A stretch of DNA of 27,204 nucleotides, from IMG/VR virus record IMGVR_UViG_3300030450_003021, positions 1 to 27,204 of that record; one strand, given 5' to 3'. Numbering within the stretch: the first letter of the stretch is position 1; each line of letters starts with the position of its first letter. This stretch comes from a virus. A program made the translations under genes and the position numbers. Under the pieces are notes generated by a model. The model was not told where the DNA came from, made no database searches, and worked only from the letters and a program-made list of their open reading frames with translations. This document shows positions 1,705 through 18,374 of this stretch, piece by piece.

Positions 1705-2211
1705 ATGGCAACAATAATTAAAAACGCTTCACTCACATCATCTATCACAGATAGTGTGGTTTTGAATGGAGTAACTTACGGAAATAATAATAGAAAGTCT
1801 ATTAGTGCCTGTAATGAGGCAATTCAACAAGTGGTAACTGTACCTGCAAGTTCAGCGTCACAAGGCTCTGTTCCTTTGTTTGGTGCAAATGCAGCTCCAA
1901 ATAGTGCTGGGGATGTTACTTTTGATAAATTTAAATACGCTAGAGTAACAAATCTTGATGATACAAACTCTGTTTTTGTATCTGTTTCAGATATTGATGG
2001 TGTTGGCGGTAGCACTGCAACAGCATATTTTACTGTAGAAGTTCCAGCAGGGATGAGTTTTGTGATTCCTAGTTTAAATTTTGATTGTGCTACATCTGCT
2101 TTAGATGGTAAATCTTTAACACATTCAACTGCTTATAATACAAAAGCAAGAATTGATGTGGTAGCTATAACAGCTGATGTAGATGTTGAATTTATAGTAG
2201 TTACATTATAA
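1705..2211 (+). CDS. Small beta-rich structural protein (candidate decoration protein)
   Basis: A 168-aa protein, low in Lys/Arg and rich in Ala, Val, Ser and Thr, with a regular alternation of short hydrophobic strands (for example KYARVTNLDDTNSVFVSVSD, TAYFTVEVPAGMSFVIPS, DVDVEFIVVTL). This composition is typical of small capsid-decorating or tail-tube-associated beta proteins, but no named family is recognised. The ATG follows an AT-rich leader of about 30 nt, and the stop codon overlaps the next start by 1 nt (TAATG), implying translational coupling. The virion role is inferred from fold pattern and neighbours. Confidence 0.6.
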   Translation: MATIIKNASLTSSITDSVVLNGVTYGNNNRKSISACNEAIQQVVTVPASSASQGSVPLFGANAAPNSAGDVTFDKFKYARVTNLDDTNSVFVSVSDIDGVGGSTATAYFTVEVPAGMSFVIPSLNFDCATSALDGKSLTHSTAYNTKARIDVVAITADVDVEFIVVTL

Positions 2212-3257
2212 TGAAAAGGGATATTAGTCAAATAGTTTTATGGATAGTTCTCCTAGGAGTACTAGGTGGAACTTTTGCATTTGGTCAAGGTGACTTTTTT
2301 AAATACTCTACTTTTTATACTTCTATGAGTATGAATACAAGTATGGTTGAAAGAGAGGATTATATGGCTATAGATAGGGGTTATGAGGATGTAACTCAAA
2401 TTAATCCTTATGATTATTCTGTAACACTTGGCTTGCGTAAGGTGGCTAGGTATGATTATGAGTATAAGGTGAAGACTTGGTATTATGGTGATGAAAAAGC
2501 TGTTTCCGATAATGTTGCCATTGGAAACGCTAAGGGTTGGGAATACTTATTAAACTACTCTTTTATAAGGAATAGAGGAGAAAAATTTACAGAACAGAAT
2601 TTTTGGTTGAGGTATCTAGGTGGCGAGTGTGTTACAAAAGTCCAATACAAGGATAATCAGAGGGTTAACTTGAAGTACATAGCTTTTGACACTAGATATA
2701 GGTTGACTTTAGGTAAACTGGATATAACTGCTGGTGGTGTTTTTAGGGTGCATCCAGCTTATGGATTTTTACCGATTCGTGACTTTTGGACTCCAGGTGA
2801 GTCAACCTTTACTCAACTAGCTAGTGACTTTGGTTACAATAGAGAGTTTGTTAATGGTGACTGGCATTGGTTTAGTGGAGATGAACTTATAGCTACATCA
2901 AATGATGAGTTTTATAAACATTATTTTGGTGATGCTATTGCTAGTTTTAATGAGCAGGAACTTGAAAAGTTGGGAGAACAGAAAGAGTTGAGTGCTGTTT
3001 TTGGTTTATCTTATTATAGTTATACTCCAAAGTTTTGGGTACACTCATGGGTTAATGTAATGCCTTTTCATTATGGCATGGACGATTACTCATTTGAATA
3101 TGGTGATGGAATGAATAAGTTAGATTGGGATTCTGGTGTTGTTTTAGGATTAAGGATAACTAATCATTTAGGTGTTTTTATTGAGGGATTACATCAACGA
3201 TATTGGGGCAAGGAAGTTTTTGAGTGTAAATTTGGGTTTAATTATTTAATATATTGA
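2211..3257 (+). CDS. Exported outer-membrane beta-barrel-like protein
   Basis: A 348-aa protein starting with a signal peptide: MKRD, a hydrophobic stretch at about residues 8-22, then A-F-G before Gln26. Gln at +1 is the Bacteroidetes Q-rule for signal peptidase I substrates. The mature part is very rich in Tyr, Trp and Phe and alternates short amphipathic strands with polar turns (YDYEYKVKTWYYGD, KYIAFDTRYRLTLGKLDITAGGVF, DWDSGVVLGLRITNHLGVFIEGLHQRY). It ends in ...FNYLIY, an aromatic C-terminus like that of outer-membrane barrel proteins. The ATG overlaps the previous stop (TAATG) and the gene runs into the next secreted-protein gene with 2 nt between stop and ATG. Phage-encoded outer-membrane proteins can alter receptors or block superinfection; that role here is inference. 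A virion location cannot be excluded. Confidence 0.6.
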   Translation: MKRDISQIVLWIVLLGVLGGTFAFGQGDFFKYSTFYTSMSMNTSMVEREDYMAIDRGYEDVTQINPYDYSVTLGLRKVARYDYEYKVKTWYYGDEKAVSDNVAIGNAKGWEYLLNYSFIRNRGEKFTEQNFWLRYLGGECVTKVQYKDNQRVNLKYIAFDTRYRLTLGKLDITAGGVFRVHPAYGFLPIRDFWTPGESTFTQLASDFGYNREFVNGDWHWFSGDELIATSNDEFYKHYFGDAIASFNEQELEKLGEQKELSAVFGLSYYSYTPKFWVHSWVNVMPFHYGMDDYSFEYGDGMNKLDWDSGVVLGLRITNHLGVFIEGLHQRYWGKEVFECKFGFNYLIY

Positions 3258-3259
3258 GT

Positions 3260-3847
3260 ATGAAAAAATTATTAGTATTATTATTATTATTATCAGGTTA
3301 TGTTTTTAGTCAAACGAATTGTGAATTATGTGTTGAGCAAAATGGATTCTACTGTGGAGATGATGAATCTAATTGGACTCAGTATAGCCCTAATGGCTGC
3401 GTTCCTAATGGTGCTGGCGGCTTATTTTATCTTAATGACGGTTGGGAAGATTGTGTCAGTGGTGCGGATGAGCAGGATGCTGTTCCAACCACTTTAGCTG
3501 ATTGTGGTTTATATGGTGAAGAGTGTGATACCGTTTATATAACAGAGTATGAGACTATTTTTGACACAATAGTTGAAATACAGGTTGTTGAGGAATTTAT
3601 TATAGACACTCTTTATATATATGAGGATGTTTTAGATACTATGTATATAGAAGTTATAGAGTATATTGAGATAATAGAAACAGAATATCTGGATTGTGAT
3701 ACAGGCTTGCCTTGTAATACATCTATTGTGGAATTAATAAACAAATCAAAGGAAGATAATAAAATTTACGACCTTATGGGTAAAGAAATTTTAAGACCAA
3801 AAGGTTTGTATATACAAAGTGGTAAAGTAAAATATAAATTAAATTAA
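3260..3847 (+). CDS. Secreted Cys-rich protein with T9SS-like C-terminal sorting tail
   Basis: I chose the ATG at 3260 over the upstream TTG at 3254 because it gives a clean signal peptide (MKKLLVLLLLLSGYVFS, then Gln18, following the Bacteroidetes Q-rule). The 195-aa product has three parts: a Cys-rich segment at about residues 18-95 (NCELCVEQNGFYCGDD, NGC, DC, DCGLYGEEC); a low-complexity acidic stretch at about 95-145 built from repeats of DTxYI/EYIE type; and a C-terminal segment reading KIYDLMGKEI followed by KGLYIQSGKVKYKLN. The tail fits type A T9SS sorting domains, which carry a (I/V)YD(L/M)xGxxV motif followed by GxYxx...GK. Known T9SS cargo is moved across the outer membrane and anchored or released, so a cell-surface location is inferred. 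No phage function is known to me for it. Confidence 0.7.
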   Translation: MKKLLVLLLLLSGYVFSQTNCELCVEQNGFYCGDDESNWTQYSPNGCVPNGAGGLFYLNDGWEDCVSGADEQDAVPTTLADCGLYGEECDTVYITEYETIFDTIVEIQVVEEFIIDTLYIYEDVLDTMYIEVIEYIEIIETEYLDCDTGLPCNTSIVELINKSKEDNKIYDLMGKEILRPKGLYIQSGKVKYKLN

Positions 3848-4081: not shown

Positions 4082-4357
4082 ATGGCAGAATTATCAGAAA
4101 ATAGTAAATTTCATATAAGTATAAAAACTTTAGGTGGTATATCAGTGTTGATATTTACTCTAGTGAGTATGTGGTTCGCTTTGCAGGCAGATATTGCTGA
4201 AGCAAAAGAACTTCCTAAACCAGAAATCAACAGAGTTGAATACGATTTAAAGGATGAGGCTGTGAGAAATGCAATATATGAGACACAGAATGATGTGCAA
4301 GATATTAAAACACAGTTAAATAAAATAGATGAAAGATTATATGAAATGGTTAAGTAA
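4082..4357 (+). CDS. Membrane-anchored coiled-coil protein near lysis genes
   Basis: A 91-aa protein with one transmembrane segment (about residues 17-34, GGISVLIFTLVSMWFALQ) and a C-terminal amphipathic helix (about residues 57-91, DEAVRNAIYETQNDVQDIKTQLNKIDERLYEM) with heptad-like spacing of hydrophobic residues. The layout, one membrane anchor plus a coiled coil, recalls inner-membrane spanin components, but there is no recognisable outer-membrane lipoprotein partner, so I do not call it a spanin. Its 3' end overlaps the start of the next gene, indicating coupling within the lysis/envelope operon. Confidence 0.65.
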   Translation: MAELSENSKFHISIKTLGGISVLIFTLVSMWFALQADIAEAKELPKPEINRVEYDLKDEAVRNAIYETQNDVQDIKTQLNKIDERLYEMVK

Positions 4358-4706
4358 GTTTATATCGCTACTCTTATTCTGTCAATTATTGACAGCTCAA
4401 GATTTTATAACAGAAAAAAACTACGAAAGTAAAATTGGTAGTGGAATTGTTGTTGTGGAGGTTTGGGCTGAATTTAATAAGGCTAATGAAGTCTCTTGGA
4501 TTAATCAGTTAACAGATTGTTCTGTTTACAGAATCACAGTTCAAGAGGCCTCAAGCCTAAATGTAAAAACAATACCCACTGTTATTGTTTATAGTTCAGG
4601 GGAGGAACACACAAGGTTTAAAGCTAACATTATGTTAGAGTTAAATGCAACAAAAAAAGATGTACAAAAAGTAATCAATGAAATAATCTTATCTAAATTT
4701 CAATGA
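4341..4706 (+). CDS. Secreted thioredoxin-fold protein lacking the CXXC motif
   Basis: The ATG at 4341 gives a signal peptide (MKWLSKFISLLLFCQLLTA, then Gln20, Q-rule); an in-frame ATG at 4329 adds four residues. The mature protein follows the thioredoxin order: a strand IVVVEVWAEF where active thioredoxins have FWAxWCxxC, a helix, a strand with YRITVQEAS, then TIPTVIVY, which matches the cis-Pro loop, and a final strand and helix (SGEEHTRFKAN ... VQKVINEII). At the active site the sequence is FNKANEV, so both redox cysteines are missing. It is probably periplasmic, with a binding or chaperone role and not a reductase. It overlaps the upstream gene by 17 nt and the endolysin start by 4 nt. 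Confidence 0.65.
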   Translation: MKWLSKFISLLLFCQLLTAQDFITEKNYESKIGSGIVVVEVWAEFNKANEVSWINQLTDCSVYRITVQEASSLNVKTIPTVIVYSSGEEHTRFKANIMLELNATKKDVQKVINEIILSKFQ

Positions 4707-5182
4707 AGTTATCAAAAAATTTTTATCTCTCTGAATTTCTAAAGAGTAATGTAGCTACTCGTAGAAATATATCAAATGAACCTACAAAAGAGGGTATAGT
4801 AGAGATGCAAAATTTATGCCAAAACCTACTACAGCCAATTAGAGACTGTTTAGGACCACTTCGTGTAAATTCAGGTTGGAGGTCCTTTGAGCTAAATAAA
4901 GCTATTGGGGGAGCTTATAAGATAATTAACGGTGAATATAAAGCTACTAGTCAGCATTGTAAGGGTCAAGCTGCTGATTTAAAATTTATTGACTCTGATG
5001 GCCATATTGATAACCAGCAGATATGGGATTGTGTTTTGGATTGTGGTTTAGAGTTTGACCAAATGATTAACGAATTTAATTGGACTTGGATTCACATATC
5101 ATTTAACAAGGGTAATAACAGGAAACAATTACTAGAAGCTTATAGAGGAGCAGATGGTAAAACTAAATATAAAAAGGTATGA
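4703..5182 (+). CDS. Endolysin: M15-family D-Ala-D-Ala (L,D) peptidase
   Basis: A 159-aa protein matching the peptidase M15A type. It begins with the typical NFYLSEFLKS helix, has VNSGWRS at about residues 55-61, the zinc-ligand motif H85-x6-D92 in SQHCKGQAADL, an acidic residue E124 in MINEF, and the last zinc-ligand His131 in WIHISF. These enzymes cleave peptide cross-links or stems of peptidoglycan and serve as endolysins. There is no signal peptide, so release would depend on the holin that follows; their genes overlap by 4 nt (ATGA type). Length is normal for phage M15 endolysins of this compact type. Confidence is high for family and moderate for the exact bond cut. Confidence 0.88.
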   Translation: MKLSKNFYLSEFLKSNVATRRNISNEPTKEGIVEMQNLCQNLLQPIRDCLGPLRVNSGWRSFELNKAIGGAYKIINGEYKATSQHCKGQAADLKFIDSDGHIDNQQIWDCVLDCGLEFDQMINEFNWTWIHISFNKGNNRKQLLEAYRGADGKTKYKKV

Positions 5183-5553
5183 TAAAAGGATTTATAAAAT
5201 CATTGGTAGGTGACGCTAGCGAAATTATAGACAATGTGGTCACAACTAAAGAGGAAAAAATGGAGCTAAAAAATGCTATGAAAAAGATGCTTTTAGACTC
5301 TGAGGTTGAATTACAGAAGACTGTTACAGAAAGATGGAAAGCTGACATGTCCTCTGACTCTTGGTTAAGTAAAAACATAAGGCCACTTACCTTAGCTTTT
5401 TTATTAATCTCAACTGTGTTACTTATATTTATAGACGCAGGATTTATTGACTTTGAAGTCAAAAATTCTTGGGTTGACCTCTTACAGCTCGTTATGATTT
5501 CTGTTGTGGGAGCATACTTTGGAGGACGTTCATTAGAGAAGATAAAGAAGTAG
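5179..5553 (+). CDS. Holin of the 3-TM (GTA holin-like) superfamily
   Basis: A 124-aa protein with an N-terminal helical cytoplasmic segment, the motif ERWKADMSSDSWLSKNIRPL at about residues 51-70 that precedes the membrane part in 3-TM holins, then hydrophobic segments at about 71-88 (LAFLLISTVLLIFIDAGF) and 98-113 (LLQLVMISVVGAYFG), and a GGRSLEKIKK tail. The pairing of a motif of this kind with an adjacent endolysin is typical of the GTA_holin_3TM family. It would form membrane lesions at the end of infection to free the M15 endolysin. The start overlaps the endolysin stop by 4 nt, so the two are likely translationally coupled. Confidence 0.85.
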   Translation: MIKGFIKSLVGDASEIIDNVVTTKEEKMELKNAMKKMLLDSEVELQKTVTERWKADMSSDSWLSKNIRPLTLAFLLISTVLLIFIDAGFIDFEVKNSWVDLLQLVMISVVGAYFGGRSLEKIKK

Positions 5554-5555
5554 CT

Positions 5556-5587
5556 ATTGTGTGATTCATTTTTTTTGTTTATATTAG
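5556..5587 (+). promoter_or_regulatory. Bacteroidota-type promoter upstream of the phosphoesterase gene
   Basis: ATTG at 5556-5559 and TATATTAG at 5580-5587 are separated by 20 nt. The Bacteroidota housekeeping consensus is TTTG, 19-21 nt, TAnnTTTG, so the -33 box matches at 3 of 4 and the -7 box at 5 of 6 fixed positions. It sits in the only gap between holin and phosphoesterase genes, 22 nt before the ATG at 5609, followed by an A-rich leader. Confidence 0.45.
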
Positions 5588-5608
5588 CGTAAACAAAAAC
5601 AAAACACT

Positions 5609-14553: not shown

Positions 14554-14745
14554 ATGGAAATGTTCGGTAAAAATGTCTTTAATAAAGATGCAGGATTTAT
14601 AGCAAACGCATTTGGTGTTGTTGCTATGATATGGTTATTGCCAATAATTATACTCTTTTTATTGTTAGACCTTGTGTTTAATCAAATACCAAGAGAGTTT
14701 ATGAGGTATATAAAAAAGAAAAAGAAAAAGAAAAAGAAAAAGTGA
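14554..14745 (+). CDS. Small membrane protein with poly-lysine tail
   Basis: A 63-aa protein with one hydrophobic segment at about residues 17-42 (ANAFGVVAMIWLLPIIILFL...) and a C-terminus of ten lysines encoded by tandem AAAAAG hexamers (about 14711-14742). Its last codon and stop overlap the GTG start of terL (GTGA). A membrane protein in front of terL is unusual; function unknown. Tail length may vary between relatives because the coding DNA is a hexamer repeat. Confidence 0.6.
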   Translation: MEMFGKNVFNKDAGFIANAFGVVAMIWLLPIIILFLLLDLVFNQIPREFMRYIKKKKKKKKKK

Positions 14746-17681: not shown

Positions 17682-18374
17682 ATGGCTTACAGTACAACAT
17701 ATAATTTAACAAGTTTAATGACAGACTTCAAAACTTGTGCTACAGCAGCAGGTTTTGCTACTATTAAATTTGGTAAACCAGAAGCTATAAATTTTGACCA
17801 CAACATTAGTTATGATTTGTTAAACATAAATTACCCAACAACATATATAGCTGAGGGGGTAAAAGAGGTTTACACATTTGAGCTTATTGTGGCTAGACCA
17901 GCTTCTTTAGGTTCAACACAGGGTGTTCAACTTTTTGATGATGATGTGGTTTCTATTTTTTCTGAACTTGAACTTAAAGTTTGGAATATGTTATCATGTC
18001 TTGCACTTGGGATAAGTGGTGGTGGTGGGTGTAAAGCTCATATACCTAAGCATAAGATACAAATGATTAGGGATAAAGGGGCTTTTAATGACAATCTTGT
18101 TATTATTAAAGTTAAATTTGATGCTATAGCAAATATAGCTGTAACTGTTGACCCTTGTGGAGGTAGTAGTGGTAATGGTGGGTGTGACGAGCCTTGTCAA
18201 GATTATTTTGGTTCTTGTGGTTGTACAGACCCAGCAGCAGTTAATTATGACGAAACAGCTGGTGTTGATGATGGAACATGTTGTTATGACACTAGTATTG
18301 AGCCATGTATTGATGAGGAAGATGGAACATTCCCTCCAACATTCCCAGAGGGAGAAACTGAAAATCCAGGTTAA
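17682..18374 (+). CDS. Tail-module protein with C-terminal Cys/GCTDP motif
   Basis: A 230-aa protein in two parts. Residues 1-155 form a mixed alpha/beta domain without obvious motifs (FKTCATAAGFATIKFGKPEA ... VYTFELIVARPASLG ... LVIIKVKFDAIANIAV), with spacing like small tail-terminator/tail-completion proteins. Residues 157-209 form a Cys-rich arm: CGGSSGNGGC, C, CGCTDPAAVNY, then A and DDGTCC and C. The order GCTDPxAxNYxxxAxxDDGxC is a motif I know from many secreted Bacteroidota surface proteins. It is followed by an acidic, Pro-rich end. A tail role is inferred from neighbours. Confidence 0.6.
   Translation: MAYSTTYNLTSLMTDFKTCATAAGFATIKFGKPEAINFDHNISYDLLNINYPTTYIAEGVKEVYTFELIVARPASLGSTQGVQLFDDDVVSIFSELELKVWNMLSCLALGISGGGGCKAHIPKHKIQMIRDKGAFNDNLVIIKVKFDAIANIAVTVDPCGGSSGNGGCDEPCQDYFGSCGCTDPAAVNYDETAGVDDGTCCYDTSIEPCIDEEDGTFPPTFPEGETENPG

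Follow-up and report, generated by a model that had tools for sequence, protein, structure and literature searches.

The described systems closest to the locus examined here concern the type IX secretion system (T9SS) and the general O-glycosylation system of Bacteroidota. A 2025 study of Prevotella intermedia used an HMM to find 48 'short' CTDs of 43-55 residues and determined the cleavage sites of five of them; these signals support cleavage and C-terminal glycosylation in P. intermedia, which was called the only reported species having both kinds of CTD (PMC11969387). Short CTDs have a Tyr/Gly motif B, a GxY-Ile motif D and a basic motif E, with a short spacing between B and D; they typically fold into a single sheet of three strands, and the first loop sometimes contains a helix (PMC11969387). 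Earlier work cited in PMC11969387 found that, for secretion of a reporter, the last 22 residues of HBP35 alone were absolutely required, whereas RgpB needs motif B. For phages, a 2020 report on Cryophage proposed phage-encoded T9SS cargo with recognised type A domains (PMC7468147). The general O-glycosylation motif of Bacteroidota is D(S/T)(A/I/L/V/M/T), in which Glu is hardly tolerated in place of Asp (PMC8550257, PMC12871550), and the sequon is also found on periplasmic proteins (PMC12871550).

The gene described here lies in a virus record of 41,897 bases (IMG/VR IMGVR_UViG_3300030450_003021), of which positions 1 to 27,204 make up the window, the whole stretch of DNA that was analysed. We consider it probable, with appreciable room for error, that the gene encodes an O-glycosylated, T9SS-exported surface protein that the phage places on its infected flavobacterial host. 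The open reading frame runs from an ATG at 3260 to a stop ending at 3847 and encodes 195 aa; the TTG at 3254 in the list of open reading frames was regarded as a mechanical start, and the ATG was taken. In order, the protein has a signal peptide, a Cys-rich head (residues 18-89), a D-T-rich stalk (90-144), DCDTGLPC, a helix and the tail KIYDLMGKEILRPKGLYIQSGKVKYKLN.

3260..3847, + strand: gene for the predicted exported protein with LDLa head, stalk and short tail (ORF, at least 80 related loci, purifying selection)
3260..3310, + strand: Sec signal peptide, residues 1-17, with Gln at +1 (inspection of the sequence; Q18 unchanged across 39 members)
3311..3526, + strand: degenerate LDL-receptor class A module, residues 18-89, as assigned from the 39-member alignment, Pfam and a cellular homologue above the Pfam cut-off
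3527..3691, + strand: variable stalk, 15-161 aa in the family, with D-T-[ILVM] O-glycosylation sequons (sequon counts)
3692..3715, + strand: DCxTGxPC, a conserved Cys pair closing the stalk (39-member alignment)
3716..3844, + strand: helix and short CTD-like tail (39-member alignment; model pLDDT about 88-90)
3764..3790, + strand: motif B equivalent, IYDLMGKEI (alignment and profile comparison; motif as defined in PMC11969387)
3803..3814, + strand: motif D equivalent, GLYI (alignment; PMC11969387)
3824..3844, + strand: motif E equivalent, the basic C-terminal strand KVKYKLN (AlphaFold model, 154-protein set; PMC11969387)
14742..16064, + strand: terminase large subunit (host link by 52% identity with Flavobacterium phage 11b)

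The gene belongs to a phage, as an earlier sequence-only reading of this DNA had proposed, and its features do not arise by chance: one scan of virus contigs gave 87 relatives, 80 of which were fetched. No relative was found among the INPHARED phages, and searches of Pfam, NCBIfam and PHROGs with the window protein returned nothing useful. The family counts given here refer to at least 80 virus contigs, to an alignment of 39 diverse members and, for the stalk, to a set of 115 proteins. Head, DCxTGxPC and tail are conserved in the alignment and the stalk is variable; between the window gene and its nearest relatives dN is about 0.12-0.14 and dS about 0.8-0.95, with purifying selection in both head and tail. 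The host is likely to be a flavobacterium, since the terminase shares 52% identity, across 95% of its length, with the one from Flavobacterium phage 11b. Two other products of the window may be recorded here: a small membrane ORF before the terminase (14554-14745) ends in ten lysines with A-rich coding, which is a possible slippage site or assembly artefact, and a protein of the structural block (17682-18374) carries a GCTDPAAVNYDETAGVDDGTC-type module that is also present in a large flavobacterial secreted protein (L164). A Foldseek search with the whole modelled window protein, a model of low confidence outside the tail, gave only noise (E of at least 2.2).

The N-terminus, MKKLLVLLLLLSGYVFS followed by Gln at +1, reads by eye as a signal peptide, and the invariance of Q18 in the 39 members upholds the earlier proposal of one. 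An AxA-Q-like signal peptide site is present in 153 of 154 short-tail proteins, a wider set introduced below. A lipoprotein was rejected on the grounds that there is no lipobox and that the distance from the Gln to the first Cys varies in the 39-member alignment.

The proposal of a Cys-rich protein also held, nine Cys being present in the window protein. Judged from its sequence, the head belongs with the calcium-binding LDL-receptor class A modules, in degenerate form. Its core resembles the C-x-P-x-x-W-x-x-DG-x-x-DC-x-DGSDE pattern of that class (PF00057), and all four acidic residues of the calcium site (D60, D64, D70 and E71) are invariant in the 39 members. PF00057 matches 25 of these 39, weakly (best 7.3e-4) and with no phage copy demonstrated above the Pfam cut-off; the window protein itself has no match. 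A head profile built from phage members only matches VLDLR chains at 1.3e-5. Unlike the class, the phage head lacks the six Cys and three disulfides of a canonical module: C4 is replaced by Asn, C6 is displaced, the C2-C3 loop is longer and there is an extra C21. The head would work like an LDLa module, and we do not file it as a canonical one. The best cellular homologue found for the head (L163) is a 1143-aa protein encoded in a Crocinitomicaceae MAG. It contains the head module twice, LDLa scores above the Pfam cut-off in it, and it ends in a genuine type A CTD that passes both TIGR04183 and PF18962. This layout recurs in a second Flavobacteriales protein, whose PF18962 match falls below the cut-off, and a Marinimicrobia protein carries the head module with the missing cysteines beside canonical LDLa repeats. 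Because the cellular homologue carries a genuine T9SS CTD, the phage head probably derives from a host T9SS cargo protein, with loss of the C4-C6 pair. The structure models of head and stalk are of low confidence.

The stalk is 15-161 residues long in the 115 proteins and is dense in the O-glycosylation sequon: 555 occurrences were observed against 66 expected by shuffling (8.4x), and the third residue is a permitted one in 555 of the 561 D(S/T) pairs. Spacings from one Asp to the next are nearly all even, from 6 to 18. The sequence-only reading was right about an extended stalk, but the 'EYIE repeats' it saw there are better described as D-T-[ILV] units at even spacings. Thr follows Asp in 556 of 740 stalk cases and follows Glu in 148 of 957, a preference that argues against the sequon enrichment being a mere side effect of strand alternation. 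The ectodomains of other phage short-tail proteins are likewise enriched (86 sequons vs 14.5 expected, 5.9x), whereas the cytoplasmic proteins of the phage examined here stand at 0.98x and its virion proteins at 0.76x. Enrichment in exported proteins, and not in cytoplasmic or virion proteins, is a separate line of evidence that the short-tail proteins are destined for the envelope of the host. On the strength of its sequons the stalk is probably O-glycosylated; since the sequon is also found on periplasmic proteins, it falls short of proving surface display.

In every relative the tail forms the very C-terminus of a protein that begins with a signal peptide. In the window protein it contains KIYDLMGKEI and KGLYIQSGKVKYKLN, and 43 residues follow the last Cys. 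Across the 39 diverse members, Y170, G174, Y184 and I185 show little or no variation. Within motif B, Y170 is present in at least 90% of these members and G174 in all, the next residue being K, R or Q in 143 of the 154 short-tail proteins. Motif D reads GLYI in the window; its Tyr and Ile are invariant in the family alignment (A1), and Gly is present in 93 of 154 tails. All 154 have K or R among the last eight residues, the position of the basic motif E. Only 7 residues separate the motif-B Gly from the start of GxYI, vs 18-31 in nearly all of 30 long CTDs from hosts. In the AlphaFold model the tail is a helix (156-166) with a small beta hairpin or sheet made of short strands (169-170, 176-177, 183-186 and 189-192), and the 3+4 beta-sandwich of an Ig-like domain is absent. 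No family model, TIGR04183 and PF18962 included, matched the tail of the window protein or of the 39 members at E<=10. A T9SS-like tail, as the earlier reading proposed, stands, whereas its assignment to the type A domain does not, and the seven-stranded Ig-like fold expected at the C-terminus is missing from the model. That reading had named the combination of no sorting-domain match and no Ig-like fold as its refutation, and both were found; we judge the test too strict because short T9SS CTDs of 43-55 residues are roughly three-stranded and have the same B, D and E motifs. In length, motifs and position, the window protein fits the short-CTD class of T9SS signals as that class is defined by sequence.

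Statistical comparisons point in the same direction. When the tail profile was aligned with host T9SS CTDs by hhalign, the score was 19.0 (probability 28%), vs 9.0 +/- 2.1 with a maximum of 16.9 for 200 column-shuffled tails and 10.0 for the reversed tail; the 34 reference CTDs came almost exclusively from a pair of Flavobacteriales MAGs, a Marinimicrobia MAG contributing one. What aligns is the B and D motifs, and about 15 of the residues that separate them are missing. A broader profile of the tail (A6), which includes host-derived tails, has matches in 84 of 395 Bacteroidota genomes, and SprA is present in 83 of these 84 vs 303 of the 395 overall (hypergeometric p=3e-10, with the overlap of the two lists counted by hand); since most of the matches are motif B of ordinary long CTDs, the association reveals a T9SS motif and not the function of every short tail. 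A search with the phage tail (A2) of 299 genomes from the host MAG's order, from which non-C-terminal false matches such as succinyl-CoA synthetase were discarded by eye, found cellular signal-peptide proteins that have unrelated ectodomains and the same short tail, for example DKIYDLLGREIEQVPIGQLYIQNGKKMFKVE. SprA is present in six of the seven flavobacterial genomes with short-tail proteins, and none was seen in short-tail genome G295, which may be incomplete. Searching the virus contigs with the cellular tails added about 48 virus loci. The 154 distinct short-tail proteins, a redoxin-like one among them, form six groups whose ectodomains BLAST does not connect; because a tail search yielded the groups, the tail itself was selected for, while C-terminal position and signal peptides were not. 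TIGR04183 matched none of the scanned members of the six groups, and only the long-CTD control was matched. The presence of the same tail on unrelated exported proteins, from phages and flavobacteria, indicates that the tail is modular.

Several short-tail loci have features of their own. The IEGKWK-type family (L275-L278, L280, L200/L202) occurs on virus contigs and in two flavobacterial genomes, which may reflect prophage, transfer or mis-binned virus. Virus locus L279:1937-3093 has two genes with a one-base overlap, CDS-type and redoxin-like, each with a signal peptide; the second carries the short tail at its end, and after it comes another gene with a signal peptide, so that the three form a small island of exported proteins. 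A 231-kb virus contig (L247:999-5596) has several signal-peptide genes in a row, together with a thioredoxin-like and a short-tail protein, and its positions 5444-5596 independently match the window protein (1.7e-11).

The neighbours of the window gene bear on where its product acts.

2211..3257, + strand: predicted outer-membrane beta-barrel, 348 aa, coupled upstream gene (neighbour in 80 of 80 loci; AlphaFold, Foldseek)
4329..4706, + strand: exported thioredoxin-like protein without CxxC (weak thioredoxin match)
4703..5182, + strand: M15 peptidase, probable endolysin (PF08291, 1.7e-10)
5179..5553, + strand: holin-like GTA_holin_3TM protein (PF11351, 4.8e-5, just under the cut-off)

The order barrel, window gene, small TM protein, TM/coiled protein, exported thioredoxin-like protein, M15 peptidase and holin-like protein is family-wide. 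The barrel gene is directly upstream in all 80 loci, with a gap of 1-3 bp in 76 of them. A family search with its product found no match; in Foldseek, its AlphaFold model (pLDDT 75) matched NanC, FapF, OmpG and autotransporter barrels, and by this model the gene encodes an outer-membrane beta-barrel. A PorV-like identity for the barrel found no support in the Foldseek or sequence searches. The thioredoxin-like protein is conserved in 70 of 80 loci and is probably not a disulfide catalyst, CxxC being present in only one of the 70 homologues.

This lysis-cassette neighbourhood counts against the surface-protein reading, and the main rival explanation is an envelope role in lysis together with the coupled barrel. 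The protein would then reside in the periplasm or on the inner face of the outer membrane and, with the barrel, holin and M15 peptidase, open the outer membrane in place of spanins, the tail serving as a folding or docking element. The family-wide recurrence of the gene order from barrel to holin, with the barrel adjacent in all 80 loci, would fit such a role, as would the occurrence of the sequon on periplasmic proteins (PMC12871550). The same tail is found, however, on cellular proteins and on unrelated exported phage proteins that have no barrel within 3 kb, and a stalk that ranges from 15 to 161 aa would be odd for spanning a fixed periplasm. We regard a lysis factor as unlikely.

The near-obligate pairing of the two genes, 1-3 bp apart, raises another idea, that the barrel serves to export or anchor just the window protein, in the manner of FapF or autotransporter barrels and independently of the host T9SS. 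FapF, EspP and EstA are indeed among the Foldseek matches of the barrel, but these matches are generic for barrels, at 6-10% identity. Moreover, the tail resembles T9SS CTDs, and its occurrence at loci with no barrel within 3 kb indicates that it is independent of the barrel, which leaves a dedicated exporter improbable. Least credible to us is a virion structural protein, a fibre or spike with a hydrophobic N-terminal segment other than a signal peptide. To judge by their position, the genes preceding the barrel may be structural, and the stalk-like repeats resemble fibres; yet the signal peptide is clear and has Gln at +1 in all members, the sequon enrichment is that of exported proteins and is absent from this phage's virion proteins, and a disulfide-rich head is unsuited to the cytoplasm.

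For a T9SS-exported surface protein, we infer the following route. The signal peptide would direct Sec export, and in the periplasm the D-T-[ILV] stalk would probably be O-glycosylated by the host's general system, as the enrichment of sequons suggests. The short tail would be read by the host T9SS, with its PorV shuttle and SprA channel, so that the protein crosses the outer membrane, and the T9SS may then cleave the tail and anchor the protein. The outcome would be a calcium-stabilised, LDLa-like head held off the membrane on a sugar-coated stalk whose length differs between phages. This reading is supported by the position and modularity of the tail, its advantage over all 200 shuffles, the SprA association, the spacing and sheet typical of short CTDs, a head shared with genuine type A CTD cargo and the sequons of the stalk. 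Against it count the lack of a match to curated models, the modest hhalign probability, the incomplete conservation of the motif D Gly and the genome in which SprA was not seen. The SprA association, coming mostly from motif B of long CTDs, and the low confidence of the head and stalk models also count against the overall interpretation. What the phage gains is a matter of speculation: our first guess is superinfection exclusion or receptor masking, and it is a doubtful one, in which the altered surface of the infected cell, perhaps together with the barrel, blocks competing phages or re-adsorbing progeny. Binding of competitors, which the earlier reading suggested beside receptor masking, would be equally speculative.

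More broadly, flavobacterial phages may possess a widespread, unannotated class of surface glycoproteins with a minimal T9SS signal that current models miss, the window gene and the barrel being a phage kit of two genes for remaking the surface of the infected cell, with superinfection exclusion as one example of its use; this we put forward only tentatively. If it is true, flavobacterial phages routinely hijack host O-glycosylation and T9SS and remodel the infected surface through signals that annotation misses, and short T9SS signals extend past the one reported species. The tail would also offer a natural minimal tag for probing what T9SS reads, and barrel and stalk protein would be a concrete candidate pair for superinfection exclusion in ecologically important polymer-degrading bacteria. 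A literature search of incomplete coverage found no description of the short signal on phage or flavobacterial proteins, the LDLa head, the sequon stalk or the coupled barrel.

Compared with known systems, the window protein shares with the Bacteroidota O-glycoproteins (PMC8550257, PMC12871550) predicted export, a high density of sequons and a strong preference for Asp over Glu; unlike them, it is phage-encoded, its sequons are arrayed in a repeat stalk and its glycosylation is a prediction. The Cryophage cargo (PMC7468147) likewise comprises phage genes with host T9SS sorting signals and variable proteins proposed to lie on the host surface; there recognised type A domains sit on enzymes or PA14 proteins, whereas here an LDLa head and a glyco-stalk are joined to a short signal that goes unrecognised. 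The core motifs of the phage tail align with those of the type A domain (TIGR04183/PF18962) by profile comparison, but the tail has about 15 fewer residues between the motifs, no Ig-like sandwich and no match to the models. With the short CTDs of P. intermedia, it has in common its place at the exact C-terminus of a signal-peptide protein about 43 residues past the last Cys, a Y-x-x-x-G motif B, a GxYI motif D close to it, a basic motif E and a small sheet in which a helix is allowed. It differs from them in occurring on phage proteins and in flavobacterial genomes and in a less strict Gly in motif D; cleavage and glycan linkage were demonstrated for the P. intermedia signals, and the phage tail is described here from its sequence and model.
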